DNA from: Candidatus Nanopelagicales bacterium
GTDB lineage: Bacteria > Actinomycetota > Actinomycetes > S36-B12 > GCA-2699445
NCBI GenBank assembly: GCA_030700225.1
Contig: JAUYJT010000042.1
Coordinates: 1-41,235 of the forward strand
DNA length: 41,235 nucleotides
Reading direction: 5' to 3'
A program made the position numbers and the translations under genes. Below the pieces are notes generated by a model. That model saw only the letters and a list, made by a program, of their open reading frames with translations. It was not told the DNA's origin and did no database searches. Shown here one piece after another: positions 1,719 to 41,128 of this stretch (position 1 is its first letter; each line of letters opens with the position of its first letter).

Positions 1719-3275
<1,557 letters not shown>

Positions 3276-4223: not shown

Positions 4224-5195
4224 ATGAGCATCCTCCACAGCACAGCCCGCGAACTGACCCACGGTGGCCGCGGCATCCTCGCCGCCGACGAGTCCATCAA
4301 GACGATGTCTGCCCGCCTCGAGGGGCGAGGCATCACGGCCAGTGAGGCCGCGCGCCGGGACTACCGCGAGCTCCTGCTCACCGCTCCCGGACTCTCGACG
4401 GCGGTCAGTGGCATCATCCTTGCCGACGAGACGTTTGGTCAGGAGCTCAGCGATGGGCGCCCGTTCCCGGTCGCGGCCCGCGAACTGGGAGTCCTGCCCG
4501 GCATCAAGGTCGACACCGGCACCACCCCGTTGCCCGGTGGTGGCGGCGCCCTCATCACGGAAGGGCTCGACGGACTCGGCGCTCGCCTGTCGTCATACGC
4601 CGAACGTGGAGCCGCATTCGCCAAATGGCGAGCCGTCATCGAAATCACCACGACCACCGAGCACACGGCTCGAGCCAACGCGCACGCGCTGGCTCGCTAT
4701 GCGGCCCTGTGCCAGGAGCACGGCATCGTTCCGATCGTCGAACCGGAGGTGCTCTGCGCCGGCGACCACGACATCGTGGCATGCGCCGACACAACCCGCC
4801 TGGCGCTCGCTGTCGTCTTCAGCGAGCTCGATGACGCAAGCGTCGACCTGAAGGGCATCGTGCTCAAGCCGAACTTCGTCACGCCTGGCCTGGATGCGGC
4901 GAAGGTCAGCGCGGCTGTCGTTGCCGCCGCAACCTTCGAGATCCTTCGCGAGACGGTGCCATCGGCCGTCCCCGGGATCGCATTCCTGTCCGGGGGGCAC
5001 CCGACGGAGGACGTGTGCGCTTTCCTCAAGGAGCTCAGCGCGATTCCGAACCGACCCTGGGACGTGACGTTCTCGTTCGGGCGGGCCCTGGTGAGTGCGG
5101 CACTGAACAGATGGGGTGGAGACCCGGCCAACGTCGACGCTGCGCAGGAGCGACTTCTCGACAACTGTCGTCGGGCCGCCGATGCCACCGCCTGA
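4224..5195 (+). CDS. Class I fructose-bisphosphate aldolase (FBA1)
   Basis: This 323-aa class I aldolase condenses DHAP with glyceraldehyde-3-P or, in the Calvin cycle, erythrose-4-P. All key residues of the rabbit muscle enzyme are matched: D22 in GRGILAADES (Asp33), K95 in GIKVD (Lys107), K134 in FAKWRAV (Lys146), E173 and E175 in IVEPEVL (Glu187, Glu189) and Schiff-base K215 in VLKPNFVTPG (Lys229). ATG 4224 is chosen because the protein then begins right before the conserved GRGILAADE block; no clear Shine-Dalgarno is seen. It follows cbbR by 34 bp, with site A between, and converges on the histidine kinase gene. It is the catalytically canonical copy of three paralogues in the window. Confidence 0.93.
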   Translation: MSILHSTARELTHGGRGILAADESIKTMSARLEGRGITASEAARRDYRELLLTAPGLSTAVSGIILADETFGQELSDGRPFPVAARELGVLPGIKVDTGTTPLPGGGGALITEGLDGLGARLSSYAERGAAFAKWRAVIEITTTTEHTARANAHALARYAALCQEHGIVPIVEPEVLCAGDHDIVACADTTRLALAVVFSELDDASVDLKGIVLKPNFVTPGLDAAKVSAAVVAAATFEILRETVPSAVPGIAFLSGGHPTEDVCAFLKELSAIPNRPWDVTFSFGRALVSAALNRWGGDPANVDAAQERLLDNCRRAADATA

Positions 5196-13200: not shown

Positions 13201-14076
13201 TCAGCGGGCCTTGTCGCGGTGCTCGAGCAGCCGCCACAGCATCGGCGTGAAGATCAGCTGCATGGCCAGGTCCATCTTCCCGCCGGGGCACACGATGGTG
13301 TTCGGCCGCGACATGAACGAGTCATGCAGCATCGAGAGCAGGTAGGGGAAGTCGATCCCGCGCGGGTTGGCAAATCTGATCACGAGCATCGACTCGTCTT
13401 GGCTTGGGATGGTCCGCGCGATGAAGGGGTTGGACGTGTCCACGATTGGGACCCGCTGGAAGTTCACGTGCGTGCGGGAGAACTGTGGGCACATGTAGTT
13501 CACATAGTCGTCCATCCGGCGCAGGATGGTCTCGGTGACCGCCTCCGCGGAGTAGCCGCGCTGGGACTTGTCGCGTTGTACTTTCTGCGTCCACTCGAGG
13601 TTGATGACCGGCACTACACCGATCAGCAGATCGGTGAATTGCGCGACATTGACCGTCTCGGTGGCCACCGCGCCGTGCAGACCCTCGTAGAAGAGCAGAT
13701 CGGTGCCAGCAGGGATCTCCTCCCAAGGCGTGAACGCGCCCGGCTCCTGGTTGTACGGCGCCGCTTCCTCGTCGCTGTGGAGATACTTGCGCAGCTTGCC
13801 GGTGCCCGTTTCGCCGTACACCCGGAACAGCTCCTCAAGTTCCCCGAAGAGGTTAGCCTCGGGCCCGAAGTGGCTGAAGGTGTGGTCACCCTCGGCCAGC
13901 GCACGCGCCATCTCCGCCTTCATCTCCACGCGGTCGAACCTGTGGAAGCTGTCGCCCTCGACGAAGGCCGCATTGACGTGCTCGCGACGGAAGATCTGCT
14001 CGAACGTGCGCATCACCGAGGTGGTTCCGGCGCCGGACGAACCGGTGATGGCAACGACTGGGTGCTTGACGGACAT
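13201..14076 (-). CDS. prk: Phosphoribulokinase, proteobacterial type
   Basis: PRK phosphorylates ribulose-5-P to RuBP, the Rubisco substrate. At 291 aa it matches the short, octameric bacterial class rather than the plant/cyanobacterial class. The P-loop is GSSGAGTTS near residue 12, followed by EGDSFHR with its substrate-binding residues, the HFGPEANLF block, FYEGLHGA and the later RRMDDYVNY and RFANPRGIDFPYL segments. ATG 14076 has GAGGAGG upstream and starts just before the P-loop. It lies 10 bp downstream of fbp and is co-transcribed with it. Confidence 0.96.
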   Translation of the reverse strand: MSVKHPVVAITGSSGAGTTSVMRTFEQIFRREHVNAAFVEGDSFHRFDRVEMKAEMARALAEGDHTFSHFGPEANLFGELEELFRVYGETGTGKLRKYLHSDEEAAPYNQEPGAFTPWEEIPAGTDLLFYEGLHGAVATETVNVAQFTDLLIGVVPVINLEWTQKVQRDKSQRGYSAEAVTETILRRMDDYVNYMCPQFSRTHVNFQRVPIVDTSNPFIARTIPSQDESMLVIRFANPRGIDFPYLLSMLHDSFMSRPNTIVCPGGKMDLAMQLIFTPMLWRLLEHRDKAR

Positions 14077-14086
14077 GGGGGCCTCC

Positions 14087-15160
14087 TCAGGTGTTGACGC
14101 GGAACAGACCGCGCAAGCCGTAGAGCGGGTGGTTGTCGGCCGCCGCCTCGGCCGGCTCGGCGTGATAGCGCTCGATGCGCTCCACTTCCTCGCGGCTGCC
14201 GAAGATGAAGCCGATGCGCTGGTGCAGGTCCTTCGGCTTGACGTCCAGGACGCGTTCGTAGCCGGTCGTGGCGCGGCCACCTGCCTGCTCGATCAGCATC
14301 GCGATCGGGTTCGCCTCATACAGGAGGCGCAGCCGGCCTGCCTTGTCGGAATCCTTGGTGTCGCGCGGATACAGGAAGACTCCGCCGCGGGTGAGGATCC
14401 GATGCGTTTCGGCAACCAGGGACGCGACCCAGCGCATGTTGAAGTCCCGTTCGCGCGGGCCGTTGACCCCCTGTAGGCACTCGCTCACGTAGCGCAGAAC
14501 CGCCGGCTCCCAGAAGCGCTGATTGGAGCTGTTGACGGCGTACTCCGAGGTGGACTCGGGGAGGGTGAGGTCTACCTCGGTGAGAAAGAACTCGCCAAGA
14601 CTCGGGTCCAGGGTGAAGACGTGCACGCCCCTCCCGACGGTGATCACAAGGACGGTGGCCGGACCGTAGACGGCGTACCCGGCTGCGACCTGCTGGGTCC
14701 CCGGTTGGAGGAAGTCCTCGACCTCGGGGTCCTCCCCCGCGGTGGTCGCGCGCAGGATCGAGAAGATGCTGCCCACCGAGACGTTGACGTCGATGTTGGA
14801 GGAGCCGTCGAGCGGATCGAAGGCAAGGAGGTACTTGCCGCGTGGATAGGCGGCCGGGATCAGGTAGGGGTCATCCAGCTCTTCGGATGCCATCCCGGCC
14901 ACATTTCCGGTGCCTTCGTTGACGGACAGGAAGATGTCGTTGGCGACGATGTCCAGCTTCTGCTGCTGCTCACCCTGGACGTTGACGGCCCCCGCCTTGC
15001 CGATCACGTCGGTGAGGGCGCCCGTGGCCATCCGCTTCGAGATCGCCTTGCAGGCCAGGGCGACGTCGAGGATGAGCGAGTTGAGTTCGCCGCTCGACTC
15101 GAGGTGACGGCGGCGCTCCTCGATGAGGAACTGCGCGAGCGTGGTCCGTTCGATCAGCAT
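14087..15160 (-). CDS. fbp: Fructose-1,6-bisphosphatase class I
   Basis: This class I FBPase (357 aa) hydrolyses fructose-1,6-bisphosphate and possibly sedoheptulose-1,7-bisphosphate, since no separate SBPase is seen. The metal-binding signature DPLDGSSNIDVN (near residue 113) and VGSIFSI follow, with the C-terminal GGRAT block. Two adjacent ATGs exist; the second (15160) is chosen because AGGAG lies 6 nt before it, against 3 nt for the first. The 183 bp upstream contains an imperfect ATCCA/TGGAT repeat but no match to the conserved A-D sites. Confidence 0.94.
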   Translation of the reverse strand: MLIERTTLAQFLIEERRRHLESSGELNSLILDVALACKAISKRMATGALTDVIGKAGAVNVQGEQQQKLDIVANDIFLSVNEGTGNVAGMASEELDDPYLIPAAYPRGKYLLAFDPLDGSSNIDVNVSVGSIFSILRATTAGEDPEVEDFLQPGTQQVAAGYAVYGPATVLVITVGRGVHVFTLDPSLGEFFLTEVDLTLPESTSEYAVNSSNQRFWEPAVLRYVSECLQGVNGPRERDFNMRWVASLVAETHRILTRGGVFLYPRDTKDSDKAGRLRLLYEANPIAMLIEQAGGRATTGYERVLDVKPKDLHQRIGFIFGSREEVERIERYHAEPAEAAADNHPLYGLRGLFRVNT

Positions 15161-15343
15161 CATGAACTCCTCAAAGGAAGGTGGCGGGGACGACGGGTGC
15201 GTGCGACTTGGACCGAGCAAACCAGCGGGGCCGGTGGCCCGGCATCCATCCGAGGGGTGGCCGGAGGGGTGGATCGGCCTGGACAGCGCCTGTGGGAGGC
15301 CGACAGGTCTGGGACCTACCTAGGTTCGCGTCGTGGCGCGGGC
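15161..15343. other. fbp-prk upstream region
   Basis: This 183-bp gap lies between the end of fba3 and fbp, both leftward. It holds the fbp ribosome binding site and GC-rich sequence including two GGGGTGG elements. I found no convincing promoter or terminator. Confidence 0.3.
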
Positions 15344-16255
15344 TCATCCCCCCTTGGCGGCGGGGTGGAGTGCCTGGGCAGCGGCGCGGCACGACGCACT
15401 GAGGGCAGCCTGGCCGGAAATGATGCCCCCATCCTGGCTCGTCCAGGCAAGGGTGGCCGGGGCGACCAGTGCGCGCCCGAACGCGAACGTGATCGGCAGA
15501 CGCAGTCCTGCCTCCGCCGCTTGGCCGCTCACGGCACCCAGGGAGGCACAGGCAACGTCGTTGTCCAGCCCTGTCGACATGAACATCACCCCCGCGAGGG
15601 TGGGGGGAACATGCTCCCTGAGCAGCTGAATGGTGGTTTGGGCCACGAGCTCCGGGTCGGCCGGATCGTCGTGCCACACGCCCGGCCGCACGAAGTTCAT
15701 CCTGATCACCACCTGGCTCGCGGGGACGGACGCAGCGGCCAGCGCTCTGTCCAGCGCCCGGATGGCGTTGCCGGTGACCGCCATCGCCACCGCATGACTG
15801 TGCGAGCACTGGTTGGGCATCGCAATGTCCAGCATCGGCAGCAGGCCCACCTCAAGGCTGGCCGCGGCCCGTTCAGCGAGCAGGGTCGTGTCGACGTACG
15901 CCGCCGGTCCGGTCGTCGTGAAGGGGTCGAGATCTGCCCTCCACTTCACGAAGCTGGCACCATCTCGAACAAGGTCGCCCAGGTCGCGTTCTGCCCGATG
16001 CGCGTCGAGGCGCACCCCGACCACGATTCCCGTGGGCGCGGCCCCGCGGCACTGGGTCAGCCCCTCGGGCGCGACCAGCACGCCCGAGATCCACTGATCG
16101 AGTTCGGGGGTCTCGAGCAGCATCGCTCGGTGGCCCTGGGCCTCGAACTCGGCTCTCCCATCGGTGTCGGTCGAGATGCGATCGAGGTGCTCGTCGACCG
16201 CGAGCAGACCCTTCCCCGGAGTGAACAGGCGCGCGGCGATGCGTTCGGGAGTCAT
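15344..16255 (-). CDS. Degenerate class I aldolase paralogue (FBA3)
   Basis: This 303-aa protein aligns along its length with FBA1 and FBA2 but lacks the catalytic set. It keeps D21 (GKGLLAVDEH) and K104 (FVKWRAD). The position of the Schiff-base lysine is R185 (VIRMNFVRPG), the Lys107 equivalent is R82, and the EPE acids are replaced by D143-I-A145. A Schiff-base aldolase mechanism is therefore unlikely. It may be a pseudoenzyme, a regulator of the other aldolases, or an enzyme with different chemistry. The ATG at 16255 has no ribosome binding site of its own and overlaps the stop of a 24-codon leader ORF (ATGA). Repeats and site D lie upstream. It is the first cbb-type gene leftward from that gap, followed by fbp and prk. 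Confidence 0.75.
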   Translation of the reverse strand: MTPERIAARLFTPGKGLLAVDEHLDRISTDTDGRAEFEAQGHRAMLLETPELDQWISGVLVAPEGLTQCRGAAPTGIVVGVRLDAHRAERDLGDLVRDGASFVKWRADLDPFTTTGPAAYVDTTLLAERAAASLEVGLLPMLDIAMPNQCSHSHAVAMAVTGNAIRALDRALAAASVPASQVVIRMNFVRPGVWHDDPADPELVAQTTIQLLREHVPPTLAGVMFMSTGLDNDVACASLGAVSGQAAEAGLRLPITFAFGRALVAPATLAWTSQDGGIISGQAALSASCRAAAQALHPAAKGG

Positions 16256-16326
16256 GAGGCCGGCTGCGCTTCGAGGACGTGCCGAACGGTGCTGATCAGG
16301 AGGGTGCGGATGCGGCCGTTGGTCAT
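16252..16326 (-). CDS. 24-aa leader ORF coupled to fba3
   Basis: The ORF starts with ATG at 16326, preceded by AGGGAG at a good spacing, and encodes 24 residues (MTNGRIRTLLISTV at the start, ending EAQPAS). Its TGA overlaps the fba3 ATG (ATGA). Because fba3 lacks its own ribosome binding site, this short ORF probably delivers ribosomes to it. It is not in the fba3 frame, and FBA3 aligns with the other aldolases without it. It could be a control peptide or the remnant of an N-terminal extension. Confidence 0.5.
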   Translation of the reverse strand: MTNGRIRTLLISTVRHVLEAQPAS

Positions 16327-16393
16327 GGCGATCTCCCTGGAATCGGTGGATCTCCACCGTCCGACCGGCGGAACCGCGCGTCCACCACCCCCA

Positions 16394-16436
16394 GGGTGAG
16401 GTCGGGGGTGAGGTCGGGGGTGAGGTCGGGGTGACC
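16394..16436. repeat. Tandem 12-bp repeats upstream of fba3
   Basis: The unit GTGAGGTCGGGG occurs three times with 12-bp spacing (GTGAG at 16396, 16408, 16420) and a fourth, altered copy follows 11 bp later (GTGAC at 16431). Each contains the GTGAG arm of the conserved inverted repeat, so these may be arrayed half-sites. They end 70-110 bp upstream of the leader ORF. Confidence 0.6.
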
Positions 16437-16474
16437 TCGTACCTGACATGTCGTGGGCCCCGAAGTCTGGAGAC

Positions 16475-16573: not shown

Positions 16574-17182
16574 ATGGCCCCGAGCACCACGACACCCAGC
16601 GGCCTCGACCCCGACCTGGCGACCCACGAGCAACCGATCCAGGAGATCATCCGGGTCGCCCATGAGCGCCTGGCGCAGCGTTTCGAGGACGTCCATGTCA
16701 TGACCTGGCCGCGTCAGGCCCGCGACGTCCAACACCGCGCCGACGCGATGCTCATCGAACTCACGCGCCACGTCAACGCCGTGCGCGCCGTGGCCGTCGA
16801 CGAGGTCCGTTCCGTCGGCGAGGCCGACCTGGCCCAAGCGCTGCGCACCCTGTGCCGCGACGTCGAGCAGAGCACGTGGTGGATCAAGGCCCGGCTCTAC
16901 GGCAATTCCAGCATGAGCAAGTGTTCGTTCCCTGCCCTGGTGGCCGAGGTCGAGGAACAGGTCGCCACCCTCCTCGACCTCGAGCAGCAGGCCCTGACCC
17001 AGCTGCGTAAACACCACGACCACGCCGGCCTGGTGCGCATCGGCCAGCGACTCCTCCGGGTCGAGGCCCACTCACCCACCCGCCCGCACCCCCACCTGCC
17101 CCACCAGGGGCGACTCGGCGCCCTGGCGCGCGCGGTGACGTCCCGCACCGACGCCATCTGGGACACCGTCGAGGGCCGCTAG
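16574..17182 (+). CDS. Uncharacterised helical protein, 202 aa
   Basis: I do not recognise this protein with confidence. It is predicted mainly helical and soluble, with heptad-like stretches (about 52-105 and 119-165) rich in Leu, Ala, Glu and His, for example HRADAMLIELTRHV. The general layout recalls hemerythrin-like HHE domain proteins, but a clear set of metal-binding His and Glu is not visible. ATG 16574 has GAAGGAGA upstream. It stands alone, divergent from fba3 across site D and convergent with the DUF6390 gene with a 22-bp gap. The shared site suggests it is controlled together with the aldolases. Confidence 0.7.
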   Translation: MAPSTTTPSGLDPDLATHEQPIQEIIRVAHERLAQRFEDVHVMTWPRQARDVQHRADAMLIELTRHVNAVRAVAVDEVRSVGEADLAQALRTLCRDVEQSTWWIKARLYGNSSMSKCSFPALVAEVEEQVATLLDLEQQALTQLRKHHDHAGLVRIGQRLLRVEAHSPTRPHPHLPHQGRLGALARAVTSRTDAIWDTVEGR

Positions 17183-34015: not shown

Positions 34016-34775
34016 CGACGGCACCGAGCACGACCATAGGCACGAGGAGCATCCGCGGGGCCAACCCCACGAGGACGTCGGCGACCACTCCGGCTACGAG
34101 ACCGGCGCCGAGCGTATCAATGTCCTGGAGCGGATCTTCAGCGAGAACGACGCCGCCGCCGACGCCAACCGTGCGGCCTTCGCCGAGCACGGTGTGCACT
34201 GCCTCAACCTGATGTCATCACCGGGCGCGGGCAAGACCACGCTGCTCGAGCGCACCCTGGCCCACCTCCAGGAGCGTGGGATACGGGCCGGGGTCATCGA
34301 AGGCGACATCGAGACCTCGATCGACGCCGACCGGTTGGCGGGATACGGCGCCCAGGTCGTCCTCCTCAACACCGGGGACGGCTTCGGCGGCGAGTGCCAC
34401 CTCGACGCACCCATGGTACGTAAGGCCGTGGGCGGACTCGACCTGGCCGCGCTCGACGTCGTCATCGTCGAGAACGTCGGCAACCTCGTCTGCCCGGCCG
34501 AGTTCGATGTCGGCGCACACACCTCCGCAATGGTCTATTCCATCACCGAGGGAGAGGAGAAGCCACTGAAGTATCCCGTCATGTTCCGCGCCTGCGACAT
34601 CGTGTTGGTCAACAAGCTCGATCTACTCCCGCACCTCGACTTCGACCTTGACCTGTTCAGGCGAAACCTCGCCCAGGTCAACCCCAAGGCGGTGGTCTTC
34701 GAACTCAGTGCCCGCACGGGCGAAGGGCTTCAGGCCTGGCATGAGCAGCTCCAGGATGCGTTGGTCCCGGCCTGA
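33993..34775 (+). CDS. hypB: HypB, nickel-binding GTPase
   Basis: HypB is the GTPase that drives nickel delivery. The 260-aa protein has a His-rich N-terminus (8 His in the first 32 residues), which in related proteins stores nickel, then a P-loop SSPGAGKTT (75-83), the GDIETSIDADR switch region, VENVGNLVCPAEFD with its metal-binding Cys, and NKLDLL for guanine specificity. ATG 33993 has GAGGAGA upstream. Its stop overlaps the next gene by one base (TGATG). Confidence 0.97.
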   Translation: MGRFHRHDDGTEHDHRHEEHPRGQPHEDVGDHSGYETGAERINVLERIFSENDAAADANRAAFAEHGVHCLNLMSSPGAGKTTLLERTLAHLQERGIRAGVIEGDIETSIDADRLAGYGAQVVLLNTGDGFGGECHLDAPMVRKAVGGLDLAALDVVIVENVGNLVCPAEFDVGAHTSAMVYSITEGEEKPLKYPVMFRACDIVLVNKLDLLPHLDFDLDLFRRNLAQVNPKAVVFELSARTGEGLQAWHEQLQDALVPA

Positions 34776-35611
34776 TGCTGCCCCGGATCGACGCCACCGA
34801 CGACCACATCGGTTTCACCTGGCTCTCGCCCGAAGGACGAGCGCTGCGGCTGCGCCAGGTCATCGCCCTGCCGGGAGCCGAGCCGGAACGCTGGCTGCCG
34901 ACCCATCTCGAGGCTCTCGACGACGTGCTGATCGAGGTCGCCGGAACGTACGGCGAGGTCCTCGGCGGCGGTCGGCGCCCGACTGCCTCCGAACGCGAGG
35001 ACCTGGTCGGTGTCTACGCAACCCTGGACCGGCTGTGCTGGGAGTACGCCGATGCCCTCGCAGCAACCGAACGCCCGGGATCGGTGCGCGCGGGGCAGAT
35101 CATCGGCACGGCTGCGTTGATGAGCATCCGGACCCGCGAGGCCGTCTCGATGATGGGCGCGCCACCCTTCGAGGGTGAGCTCGACGAGCCCGGTCTGGGC
35201 GTGATAGGAGGGCGGGCGGGCCTGCACTGGGTCACCCCCGAGGCGGCGTGGCCGGGAGCCCGCTGGCTGGTCGTCACCGACGGCGGTCTGCGGCTCCCCG
35301 CGACGCTGTCGATGCTGATGTTCGACGCCTCAGGTGTCGACAAAGACGCGACCCTGACCGAGCACCGAGAGGCGCTTGCTCGGGTCACGGAGGCCGAGAC
35401 CGACCCGGCGGCAGAGCCTATGCGGGCGAGTGGCGCGCTCGACTGGTTGCTGTTCGACTGGATCATGGCTCACCGTGACGGCCCCGACTCCGGGGCGGTC
35501 CAGATTCGCTCCGGCAACGTGGCCGACGCCGACATGATCGTCGCCGCCACGGCCGCTTCCGCCCGGATCCGCGCCCGCTTCGACCCGGCGCTGGTTGGGA
35601 CACTGGCCTGA
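34775..35611 (+). CDS. Unrecognised protein coupled to hypB, 278 aa
   Basis: I do not recognise this protein. It is soluble, acidic and without signal peptide or membrane segments. The N-terminal half is helical (residues 40-110), the centre has GGRAGLHWVTPEAAWPGARW and LRLPATLSML (about 148-190), suggesting a mixed alpha/beta fold, and the C-terminus is helical. Its ATG overlaps the hypB stop (TGATG), so it is translated with the nickel GTPase, which suggests a maturation or nickel-related role. It ends 48 bp before conserved site C. Confidence 0.7.
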   Translation: MLPRIDATDDHIGFTWLSPEGRALRLRQVIALPGAEPERWLPTHLEALDDVLIEVAGTYGEVLGGGRRPTASEREDLVGVYATLDRLCWEYADALAATERPGSVRAGQIIGTAALMSIRTREAVSMMGAPPFEGELDEPGLGVIGGRAGLHWVTPEAAWPGARWLVVTDGGLRLPATLSMLMFDASGVDKDATLTEHREALARVTEAETDPAAEPMRASGALDWLLFDWIMAHRDGPDSGAVQIRSGNVADADMIVAATAASARIRARFDPALVGTLA

Positions 35612-35758: not shown

Positions 35759-36889
35759 ATGAGCACGAAGCGCCCGCGCGCTCTGTATGCGCCAGCCCGG
35801 ACCGCCCACATCGCCCGACGCCTGATGGGCGATGGCCGCGGGATCCTGTCGGCCGACGAGTCGATCTCAACCGTGTCCGGGCGGTTCGTCGACGAGAGCA
35901 TCGAGCCCAGCACGCGCGTACGACGCGACTACCGCCAACTTCTTCTGACAGCTCCCGGTCTCCGGACGACGGTCAGCGGCATCATCGTGTGCGACGAGAC
36001 GTTCGGCCAGGCGCTCACCACCGGCGAACAATTCCCGGAGGCGGCTGCCGCCCGCGGCATCCTCGTCGGGATCAAGATGGACACGGGGCCACTTCCGAGC
36101 CCAGTGGTGCCCCAGGGCGCACTGGTGACCGAGGGGCTCGAGGGTCTCCAGGCTCGGCTCGAGTCCTACGCCACCCGCGGGGCCGCCTTCGCCCAATGGC
36201 GAGCGGTCTTCGATGTCGCCACCCCGGACAGGGCGGTTATCCGCGAGAACGCACATCGCATGGCGGTGTACGCACGATGGTGCCAGGACGCCGACATCGT
36301 GCCGATCGTGGAGCCCGAGGTGCTGGCCGCGGGCGCGCACAACCTGGACGCGTGCAGACAGCTGACGCGGCTGGCACTCACGACACTCTTCGATGCCCTG
36401 GCCGTGCAGGGCGTGGACCTCGCGGGCGTGGTGCTCAAGCCCAACTTCGTCACGCCCGGCCTCGCCAGCCAGCCGTTGTCGGCCACGACCGTGGCCACCG
36501 AGACGTTCGACGTGCTGCGTGAGACCGTGCCGAGCGAGGTGCCCGGCATCGCCTTCCTGTCCGGCGGCCATCCGGCCGATGCCGCCTGCGCCTACCTCGC
36601 CGCGTTGCGCGCCGTGAACGGCCGGCCATGGGATGTTACGTTCTCCTTCGGCCATGCACTGGTCAGCGAGGTCCTCGCGATCTGGGGTGGCTCACACGCC
36701 AACGTCACCCTCGCCCAGAGGTCCTTGTTGTCCAACTGCGCCCGGGCTGCCGCAGTATCGCGTGATCCGGACTTGTCCGGCCACAGCGGCGGCGCTGAGG
36801 CCCAGCTGCTTGATGGTCACCGGAACAGCCCCTCACGCAGGGCCACGGCCGTCGCGTCGCTTCGATCGGACACACCAAGCTTGCGGTAG
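35759..36889 (+). CDS. Class I aldolase paralogue (FBA2), K-to-Q at Lys146
   Basis: This 376-aa class I aldolase keeps D33 (GRGILSADES), K106 (GIKMD), E185 and E187 (IVEPEVL) and the Schiff-base K227 (VLKPNFVTPG). The catalytic Lys146 of the FAKWR motif is Gln146 (FAQWRAV), which should weaken the reaction. An approximately 45-residue C-terminal tail continues past the point where FBA1 ends and runs antisense into the end of the RR2 gene (73-bp convergent overlap); the tail looks non-conserved. ATG 35759 is the first good start; the AGGAGG before it is about 15 nt away. Site C lies upstream. Confidence 0.88.
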   Translation: MSTKRPRALYAPARTAHIARRLMGDGRGILSADESISTVSGRFVDESIEPSTRVRRDYRQLLLTAPGLRTTVSGIIVCDETFGQALTTGEQFPEAAAARGILVGIKMDTGPLPSPVVPQGALVTEGLEGLQARLESYATRGAAFAQWRAVFDVATPDRAVIRENAHRMAVYARWCQDADIVPIVEPEVLAAGAHNLDACRQLTRLALTTLFDALAVQGVDLAGVVLKPNFVTPGLASQPLSATTVATETFDVLRETVPSEVPGIAFLSGGHPADAACAYLAALRAVNGRPWDVTFSFGHALVSEVLAIWGGSHANVTLAQRSLLSNCARAAAVSRDPDLSGHSGGAEAQLLDGHRNSPSRRATAVASLRSDTPSLR

Positions 36890-38239: not shown

Positions 38240-39304
38240 TCACGCAAGAGTGATGGGGGCGCTGTCGACGCCGAGCTGACGCTCCAGTCCTCGCCACATC
38301 GCAGCGTTGGAAGAGATCGTGTGGCCGTCGTCGAGTGCCGCCCAGGCCGTCGTGACCACGGCCTGCAACAGGTCGCGTCCGCTGTCGCCTTCTCGAACGT
38401 ACACGAAACCGTCAGGCGAGATTTCGACCAAGTCGCCCGGCGTCTGGCGCAGGCGCAGGGGAGACTTGAGCAGTCCGGTAAGGTCGCGTGCGACGTACGT
38501 CGGCCGCTGGCAGTCAGGAGCGAACGCGAGTTCCTGCAGGCGTGAGGCTCCGGACAGAACGAACAGCGAGTCGAGGCGTGCAGCGTTGGCCCCTGCGATG
38601 TCGGTATCGAGGCGGTCTCCGCACACGAGGGTGGCGTCGTGCCTCGTATCGAGCCTGGCACGAGCCAGGTCGAACAACGCTGGACCCGGCTTGCCGGTGA
38701 CGTGTGGGTCCACTGTCGTGGCGGTCCGGACCGCGGCCACAAGAGCGCCATTGCCGGGCGCCGGGCCGTCCGCAGTCGGGAAGGTCAGGTCGCGGTTGGT
38801 GGCTACCCAAGGCACACCGCGCCGGACAAGGTTGCCGACCGCGGCTAGCTCGCGCCAGGTGACCTCCATCCCCAGACCCTGGACGATCGCCACAACCGTG
38901 GTGTCGGCCACGTCCGGGACGCGGACCGGGCCCAGCCCCGCCTCTGCGAGCGCCTCCGAGACTCCAGGTCCGCCAACAGCCAGCACGGACGCGCCAGGCG
39001 GAAGCCGCTTCGCCAAATACGCCGCAGCAGACTGGGAGCTGGTCACCACCGACCAGCCGGGATCTTCCACGCCTATTTCGCGCAAGTGCCTGGAGACCTC
39101 CTCCGGCGAACGCGACGCGTTGTTCGTCGCGAAGACGACCCCAACGCCGCTGGCAAGGACGTCGCGCAGGGTCGCGACCGCACCGGGCACGGCAGCGTCT
39201 CCTCGGTAGACGACGCCGTCGAGATCGCAGATCACCCCGTCGTACTCGGCGACTAGGGAGCCGGTCGAACGATCGGTCTGAAAGCCCTCGGACGGTGGAA
39301 GCAC
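38240..39304 (-). CDS. HAD-IIA phosphatase, phosphoglycolate phosphatase-like
   Basis: This HAD-IIA (NagD/PGP-like) phosphatase of 354 aa has motif I CDLDGVVYRG (D27, D29), motif II ATNNASRSP (about 59-67), the cap domain (about 85-200), motif III TGKPGP and motif IV CGDRLDTDIAG. Members act on 2-phosphoglycolate, p-nitrophenyl phosphate or sugar phosphates. Next to a Calvin-cycle locus with glcD and an aminotransferase, phosphoglycolate is a good guess, but IS remnants separate it from those genes. The start is GTG 39304 with GAGGAG upstream. The C-terminal 70 residues are an added tail. Confidence 0.8.
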   Translation of the reverse strand: MLPPSEGFQTDRSTGSLVAEYDGVICDLDGVVYRGDAAVPGAVATLRDVLASGVGVVFATNNASRSPEEVSRHLREIGVEDPGWSVVTSSQSAAAYLAKRLPPGASVLAVGGPGVSEALAEAGLGPVRVPDVADTTVVAIVQGLGMEVTWRELAAVGNLVRRGVPWVATNRDLTFPTADGPAPGNGALVAAVRTATTVDPHVTGKPGPALFDLARARLDTRHDATLVCGDRLDTDIAGANAARLDSLFVLSGASRLQELAFAPDCQRPTYVARDLTGLLKSPLRLRQTPGDLVEISPDGFVYVREGDSGRDLLQAVVTTAWAALDDGHTISSNAAMWRGLERQLGVDSAPITLA

Positions 39305-39886: not shown

Positions 39887-41094
39887 ATGGCTCGTCCTGC
39901 CATTGCTTGTGAGGTCCGAAAGGCGTTCTGGCGGCACGTCGCTGCTGGGCTCACGACTGAGGATGCTGCGGTAGCTGCTGGCGTGTCGCGGGCCGTGGGC
40001 TACCGCTGGTTCGCAGCATCGGGTGGTGTGATGCCGCGACGGACCGATCGTGAGAACCCGGCCGACCCACCGCGTCCCCGGGGGCGTCGGTTGAGCCTGG
40101 CTGATCGCGAAGAGATCGCCTTGTTGCTGCACCAGAGGCGCAGCGATGCCGAGATCGCCACGGTGCTGGGCTTCGACCGGACCACGATCTGGCGCGAACG
40201 TCGACGCAACACCACCGGTGGCCGGTACCGAGCCACGACAGCGCAAGCGGCCGCCGATGCCCGTCACCGCGACGCGCACCCGCCCGGGCCGGTCAAGCTC
40301 GCCGAAGGCACCCCACTCCACGACGAGGTCCAGGCACGGCTGAGCAAGAATCAGAGCCCCGAACAGATCGCGCATCGGCTCCGCCGCGACTTCCCCGACG
40401 ACCCGGAGATGCACGTGTCCCACGAGACGATCTACCAGGCCCTCTACGTCCAAGGACGCGGCGCGCTGCGCCGCGAGCTAGCGAACTGTCTGCGCACCGG
40501 ACGCGCGATGCGCAAACCCCGTGCCCAACGCGCCGCCCGCAACGCCCGGACCGGGAACCTGCGCGACATCGTCTCCATCAGCCAACGCCCACCCGAGGTC
40601 GAGGACCGTGCCGTGCCCGGCCACTGGGAAGGCGACCTCATCCTCGGCGCCGGCAACACCTCCGCGATCGGAACCCTGGTCGAACGCGCCACCGGCTACC
40701 TGATCCTGCTCCACCTCGACGGCGACCACACCGCCGAAACCGTCCAAGAAGCCATGTGTCGCGAGATGGCCAAGCTGCCCGAAACCCTGCGCCAGACCCT
40801 GACCTGGGACCGCGGCAGCGAGATGGCCAACCACGTCCAGATCGCCGCCGCGACCGGCCTGGACATCTACTTCGCCGACCCCGCCTCACCGTGGCAACGC
40901 GGCTCCAACGAGAACACCAACGGACTCCTACGCCAGTACTTCCCCAAAGGCACCAACCTGTCCTTCTGGGGCCCCGGCTTCCTCGACCAAGTCGCCCACG
41001 AGATGAACAACCGACCCCGCAAGAGACTCGGCTGGGACACCCCCGCCGAAGCCCTAGACGCACTACTGTCCAACCCCATCAACCCACCCGGTGA
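39838..41094 (+). mobile_element. IS30-family element, right end lost
   Basis: The element contains one transposase gene and a probable left end near 39840. Its right end is replaced by the terminal sequence of an IS3-family element beginning at about 41095 (TGAATCGCCCCGGG), so it is probably immobile. Boundaries are inferred. Confidence 0.5.
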
Positions 41095-41128
41095 TGAATC
41101 GCCCCGGGTTTCGTGGAGGCTCGGTTAG
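39887..41128 (+). CDS. IS30-family transposase
   Basis: The 413-aa transposase has an N-terminal HTH (about 20-45), the IS30 HTH_38 domain (68-105, LSLADREEIALLL and IATVLGFDRTTIWRE) and a DDE integrase core with D250 (HWEGDLILG), D308 (LTWDRGSE) and E342 (GSNENTNGLLRQYFP). The last ten or so residues (after NPPG) are encoded by the end of the adjacent IS3 element, so the native C-terminus is lost, while the catalytic core is whole. ATG 39887 is the first start after the left end. Confidence 0.93.
   Translation: MARPAIACEVRKAFWRHVAAGLTTEDAAVAAGVSRAVGYRWFAASGGVMPRRTDRENPADPPRPRGRRLSLADREEIALLLHQRRSDAEIATVLGFDRTTIWRERRRNTTGGRYRATTAQAAADARHRDAHPPGPVKLAEGTPLHDEVQARLSKNQSPEQIAHRLRRDFPDDPEMHVSHETIYQALYVQGRGALRRELANCLRTGRAMRKPRAQRAARNARTGNLRDIVSISQRPPEVEDRAVPGHWEGDLILGAGNTSAIGTLVERATGYLILLHLDGDHTAETVQEAMCREMAKLPETLRQTLTWDRGSEMANHVQIAAATGLDIYFADPASPWQRGSNENTNGLLRQYFPKGTNLSFWGPGFLDQVAHEMNNRPRKRLGWDTPAEALDALLSNPINPPGDESPRVSWRLG

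Follow-up and report, generated by a model that had tools for sequence, protein, structure and literature searches.

The window, by which we mean the whole 41,235-nucleotide stretch of Candidatus Nanopelagicales DNA analysed here, carries a gene, FBA3, that encodes a class I fructose-bisphosphate aldolase (FBA) fold without the Schiff-base lysine. FBA3 and its relatives are most probably conserved class I FBA paralogues of actinobacterial Calvin-cycle islands that have given up Schiff-base chemistry, rebuilt the active site and come to bind a sugar phosphate. These genes pass for aldolases by family match, although the residue on which the family's chemistry is defined is missing from them. 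In this clade the fold is conserved, the catalytic set is lost and selection is seen across species, as would be expected of a pseudoenzyme. The reading of the earlier note, in which FBA3 is a pseudoenzyme or a repurposed enzyme and does not act as an FBP aldolase through a Schiff base, is well supported and can now be extended to a clade of eleven.

FBA3 lies on the minus strand at 15344..16255, and its frame is intact from the ATG at 16255 to the TGA at 15344 (303 codons, 303 amino acids). The GC content by codon position (0.72/0.53/0.83) is of the coding type and resembles that of FBA1 and the neighbouring genes. Directly downstream on the same strand is fbp, encoding fructose-1,6-bisphosphatase (14087..15163), and the run continues with prk, encoding phosphoribulokinase (13201..14076), so that FBA3 stands at its head. 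Frame, GC pattern and neighbours therefore agree with the intact, well-framed gene beside fbp and prk that had been described before. The RuBisCO large subunit gene (RbcL; 1719..3176, minus strand) marks the Calvin-cycle island, and FBA1, a class I FBA of the canonical kind in which no catalytic residue is missing, is encoded at 4224..5195 on the plus strand. A class II aldolase gene is present elsewhere in the same genome. The window also holds a second altered paralogue, the class I FBA gene FBA2 (35759-36889, plus strand), which is 61% identical to FBA1 and combines K146Q and R303H with a kept Lys229 and Glu187; this pair of changes was absent from the other loci read.

By family profile, FBA3 matches Pfam PF00274 (E=4.1e-32, 111.8 bits, gathering score 22.2), as do six other members of its clade at 52-189 bits, and it is matched by 44 different class I FBA sequences of the PDB. 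With the NCBIfam FBA equivalog NF033379, FBA3 scores 132.2 bits, below the curated cut-off of 250; the same profile gives FBA1 410, FBA2 353 and the other clade members 71-210 bits. The AF2 model of FBA3, computed from a 30-sequence alignment, is a (beta/alpha)8 class I FBA barrel with a pLDDT of 89.8 and a pTM of 0.89. Its best PDB matches by VIA-align are class I FBAs (Z 35.6, rmsd 2.4, 298 aligned), and a Kribbella member modelled in the same manner (pLDDT 92.9, pTM 0.91) reaches Z 34.5 to class I FBAs. The class I aldolase fold proposed earlier is thus borne out, the barrel being shared at Z about 35 with enzymes such as those of rabbit muscle (1ado), Toxoplasma (5tkl) and Bartonella (3mmt).

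Residue equivalences were taken from the alignment of FBA3 with FBA1, FBA2 and homologues and are given in rabbit numbering, with all codons on the minus strand. Arg185 (15701..15703, beta6) occupies the position of the Schiff-base Lys229, Arg82 (16010..16012, beta3) that of Lys107, and Asp143-Ile144-Ala145 (15821..15829, beta5) those of Glu187-Pro188-Glu189, while Lys104 (15944..15946, beta4) corresponds to Lys146 and Asp21 (16193..16195, beta1) to Asp33, all as the earlier note had assigned them. In the AF2 model, D21, R82, K104, D143 and R185 are placed at or just after their strand ends. Further changes are S35H (H23), G272T (T228) and the disappearance of the TEGLDGL stretch. Also kept are Ser271 (Ser227, 15575..15577) and Arg303 (Arg261, 15473..15475), both at the C1-phosphate site, together with R148 (R106), N231 (N187) and G273 (G229). 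Among the features of the equivalog, FBA3 lacks Lys229, Glu187 and Glu189, and has Lys146, Ser271, Gly273, Arg303 and Arg148. Lys107, Lys146, Glu187 and Lys229 are present in every class I FBA from outside the window that was aligned, and those sequences have only scattered single changes (N231S in a few; E189Q and S271P in one).

A direct search of genome contigs with FBA3 found nothing, since identity between FBA3 and the rest of the clade is only 30-40%. Family-, order-, class- and phylum-wide searches using FBA3 as the sole query gave no close relative, the loci read being all canonical FBAs, and plasmid searches gave no high-identity match, the best reaching 33% for FBA3 and the matches being mostly annotated as class I FBA. 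The relatives came from a contig scan with the FBPase encoded next to FBA3, which yielded 80 loci, five of them with an FBA3-like gene near fbp, and from a subsequent profile search that added five FBA3-type genes in other genomes. The 1966 genomes covered contained ten relatives with the core substitutions, the orthologues that the earlier note had proposed to look for: those of Nocardioides sp. Root682, Nocardioides sp. J54, N. pelophilus, two Kribbella, Nocardioidaceae UBA4001 and four other genomes. One further gene, in genome G1281, resembled a member by score (196 bits) and was excluded for its canonical residues.

K229R and E189A are found in 11/11 members, and Lys229 is Lys in 29/29 canonical sequences. 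The motif [TSD][IVA]A[ML]P occurs in 11/11 clade members versus 0/29 canonical sequences, and EPE in 0/11 versus 28/29. D33, R148, S271, G273 and R303 are kept in all eleven; K146E and S35Y occur in ten, and nine have Thr at the position of Glu187. Conserved positions specific to the clade are, in FBA3 numbering, V19, Y23, R82, E104, N108, P111, G117, H120, T143, A145, M146, P147, V156, N163 and R185. Of the eleven, the window protein diverges most; it deviates at several of these sites (A19, H23, K104, D108, P117, Y120 and D143), so the function of the other ten need not be its own. Tyr23 and His120 in the relatives, set against His23 and Tyr120 in the window protein, look like a swap. The clade therefore resembles class I FBA in Ser271, Gly273, Arg303, Arg148, Asp33 and its Calvin-cycle neighbours, and differs from it in the absent Schiff-base lysine and Glu187/Glu189, Lys107 to Arg, Lys146 to Glu in 10/11, Ser35 to Tyr or His, the lost interface stretch and a score below the equivalog cut-off.

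In a tree with the 29 canonical sequences, all eleven form one clade with support of 100/100. The window protein branches first within it, on a long branch and with weak support (76/90), and its Lys104 may therefore be either ancestral or the product of a reversal. NG86 dN/dS is 0.245/1.158 = 0.21 for Root682 and J54, 0.313/0.884 = 0.35 for the Kribbella pair and 0.232/0.704 = 0.33 for genomes G841 and G816; the range of about 0.2-0.5 for the clade is rough, as dS is near or above 1. In three such genome pairs the dN of FBA1 is 0.09-0.25, and the FBA3-type gene evolves 2-3 times faster than FBA1 (dN 0.25 versus 0.09, one genome pair). Taken together, these values point to a clade that evolves faster than FBA1 but under constraint, as expected of purifying selection.

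The FBA3-type gene lies inside a Calvin-cycle gene island in all 11 members, and its place there varies. It lies tail-to-tail with the RuBisCO activase gene cbbX in four genomes, head-to-head with fbp in both Kribbella, close to cbbX and FBA1 in genome G984, and upstream of fbp-prk in the window. In three Nocardioides it follows hypB and is itself directly followed by a homologue (e.g. L185 9298-9918) of the product of 16574..17182 (plus strand), the divergent neighbour of FBA3 in the window. The latter is a protein of about 202 amino acids with no match in Pfam, NCBIfam or PDB. A second product without a family match, encoded at 34775-35611 (plus strand), is likewise conserved in Nocardioides as a neighbour of hypB and of the FBA3-type gene. 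Across 295 genomes of one family, the FBA3-type gene is present in 8, RbcL in 10 and both in 7. The gene thus occurs in 7/10 genomes with RbcL versus 1/285 without, that one being beside cbbX at a contig end (Fisher p 2.6e-11, a value inflated by relatedness). Most members' genomes also hold a canonical class I FBA, which usually shares a contig with the FBA3-type gene and is 5-35 kb off where measured.

Only 2/38 Kribbella genomes have an FBA3-type gene. None is present in N. allogilvus, which of the relatives found is the closest one for the remainder of the island (RbcL 96%, FBA1 92%, FBP 87%). The gene is accessory and unevenly present; since many Calvin loci lack it, it is not essential to the cycle. 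In N. allogilvus, homology to prk-fbp ends at window position 15278, immediately short of FBA3; the gene that comes next there matches window 38468-39263. A window block of about 23 kb (15278-38468), with FBA3, the hyp and hydrogenase genes and FBA2, therefore separates two genes that N. allogilvus has side by side, as if it had been inserted or lost as one unit. The island itself may have been acquired horizontally, since an FBA3 query matched no class I FBA in related genomes of the order, and the RbcL of the window is 96% identical to that of Nocardioides allogilvus.

What such a protein would do is suggested by what it has kept. We take Ser271, Gly273 and Arg303 to be the kept phosphate site of rabbit aldolase, and Ser35 and Lys107 its second phosphate site. 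The kept residues, together with Arg148, suggest a phosphate-bearing ligand, and since all four are invariant, sugar-phosphate binding by FBA3, as proposed in the earlier note, is plausible; the changed Ser35 and Lys107 suggest that the second site is altered. In the mechanism that we propose, the kept site would hold a Calvin-cycle sugar (bis)phosphate non-covalently, and Arg185 would fill the place of the catalytic lysine. There is a precedent in two relatives of the class I aldolases, LsrF and ADH synthase, whose barrels handle other phosphorylated ligands (PMC2728841), although these keep the catalytic lysine and FBA3 does not. We would put at even chances the bolder possibility that a class I aldolase barrel lineage was rebuilt in actinobacterial Calvin islands into a new class of protein, be it a sugar-bisphosphate sensor or an enzyme with a new non-Schiff-base mechanism, for example one that clears inhibitory sugar phosphates made by RuBisCO. 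If a Calvin-cycle metabolite is sensed or processed, this would reveal a control or repair step not known so far in soil actinobacteria that oxidise hydrogen and fix carbon, a type connected with atmospheric chemosynthesis (PMC9561532). With FBA1 as the "before" and FBA3 as the "after" within one gene island, the change of function is directly testable. Our search of the open-access literature gave no match for an aldolase pseudoenzyme or for an FBA3-type gene in Calvin clusters.

Two branches of this explanation have to be weighed. A binding or regulatory role in the Calvin cycle would be the slightly favoured one, though only tentatively, given that the gene evolves fast and is an accessory one of uneven occurrence. 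The other branch, a new reaction, is a serious but somewhat less expected possibility, in which the clade would act on a Calvin-cycle phosphate through Glu104, His120, Tyr23, Thr143 and Arg185 and independently of a Schiff base; isomerisation, epimerisation, metal-assisted cleavage and the clearing of RuBisCO side products are candidates. The new polar residues fixed across the clade and the tail-to-tail arrangement with cbbX at four loci speak for it, but the proposed catalytic set is not kept in the window protein, which has Lys104, Tyr120 and His23.

Outside the reading of a rebuilt, phosphate-binding paralogue, a duplicate decaying under relaxed selection on its way to a pseudogene is improbable. 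The rate excess over FBA1 and the long end branch are what it would predict, but it is opposed by the dN/dS of the clade, about 0.2-0.5, by phosphate-site residues that never vary and by the new residues that the members share. The decay of the frame in relatives that the earlier note had named as a sign of a pseudogene was not found, the ten relatives being intact instead. A simple pseudogene was rejected on the intact frame in 11 genomes.

A regulatory subunit that forms hetero-oligomers with FBA1 is similarly unlikely. A canonical class I FBA is at hand in most members' genomes, as such a partnership would need, but the TEGLDGL-type stretch, which takes in known tetramer-interface positions (rabbit Gln125, Asp128), is missing in 11/11 members and present in 29/29 canonical sequences. 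In addition, no canonical class I FBA was detected in genome G841, which has an FBA3-type gene, a provisional result as genome completeness was not reported.

The loss of Schiff-base chemistry can be followed through the lysines. The roles of Lys229, Glu187 and Glu189 in the Schiff-base route of class I FBA have been summarised, and in the same work a krill FBA with K230D is reported to have about half activity, so that lysine loss was not total in that assay (PMC9499490). The krill result conflicts with the accepted role of Lys229, yet it is a measured value. With Lys229 lost together with Glu187 and Glu189, the established route would be removed in FBA3. The Root682 and J54 members have zero lysines and the N. 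pelophilus member has one, and no lysine position is conserved across the clade. Judged from their sequences, a lysine Schiff base is excluded for the Root682 and J54 members, and with two such members the clade as a whole would be unable to use one. For the window protein the exclusion holds at the canonical position only. Lys104 is its sole lysine at a barrel-strand end. Transaldolase has its Schiff-base lysine, Lys132, on beta4 and an aspartate on beta1, an arrangement that the window protein resembles with Lys104 and the kept Asp21. A nucleophile moved to Lys104 in the manner of transaldolase is nevertheless very unlikely and was rejected, as the residue is Glu in the other ten members and two members are lysine-free. 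No sequence match to transaldolase was seen.

Some minor observations concern the DNA around FBA3 and the window end. The FBA3 start has no obvious ribosome site. A 24-codon ORF at 16255-16326 (minus strand), with a purine-rich stretch before its own ATG, has a stop that overlaps the FBA3 start (ATGA), and translational coupling of the two is possible. Upstream of FBA3, at about 16390-16450 (minus strand), a stretch of about 12 bases (CCCCGACCTCAC) recurs in near-perfect direct repeats. At the window end, an ORF at 39887-41128 (plus strand) resembles an IS30-type transposase, as judged by eye only.
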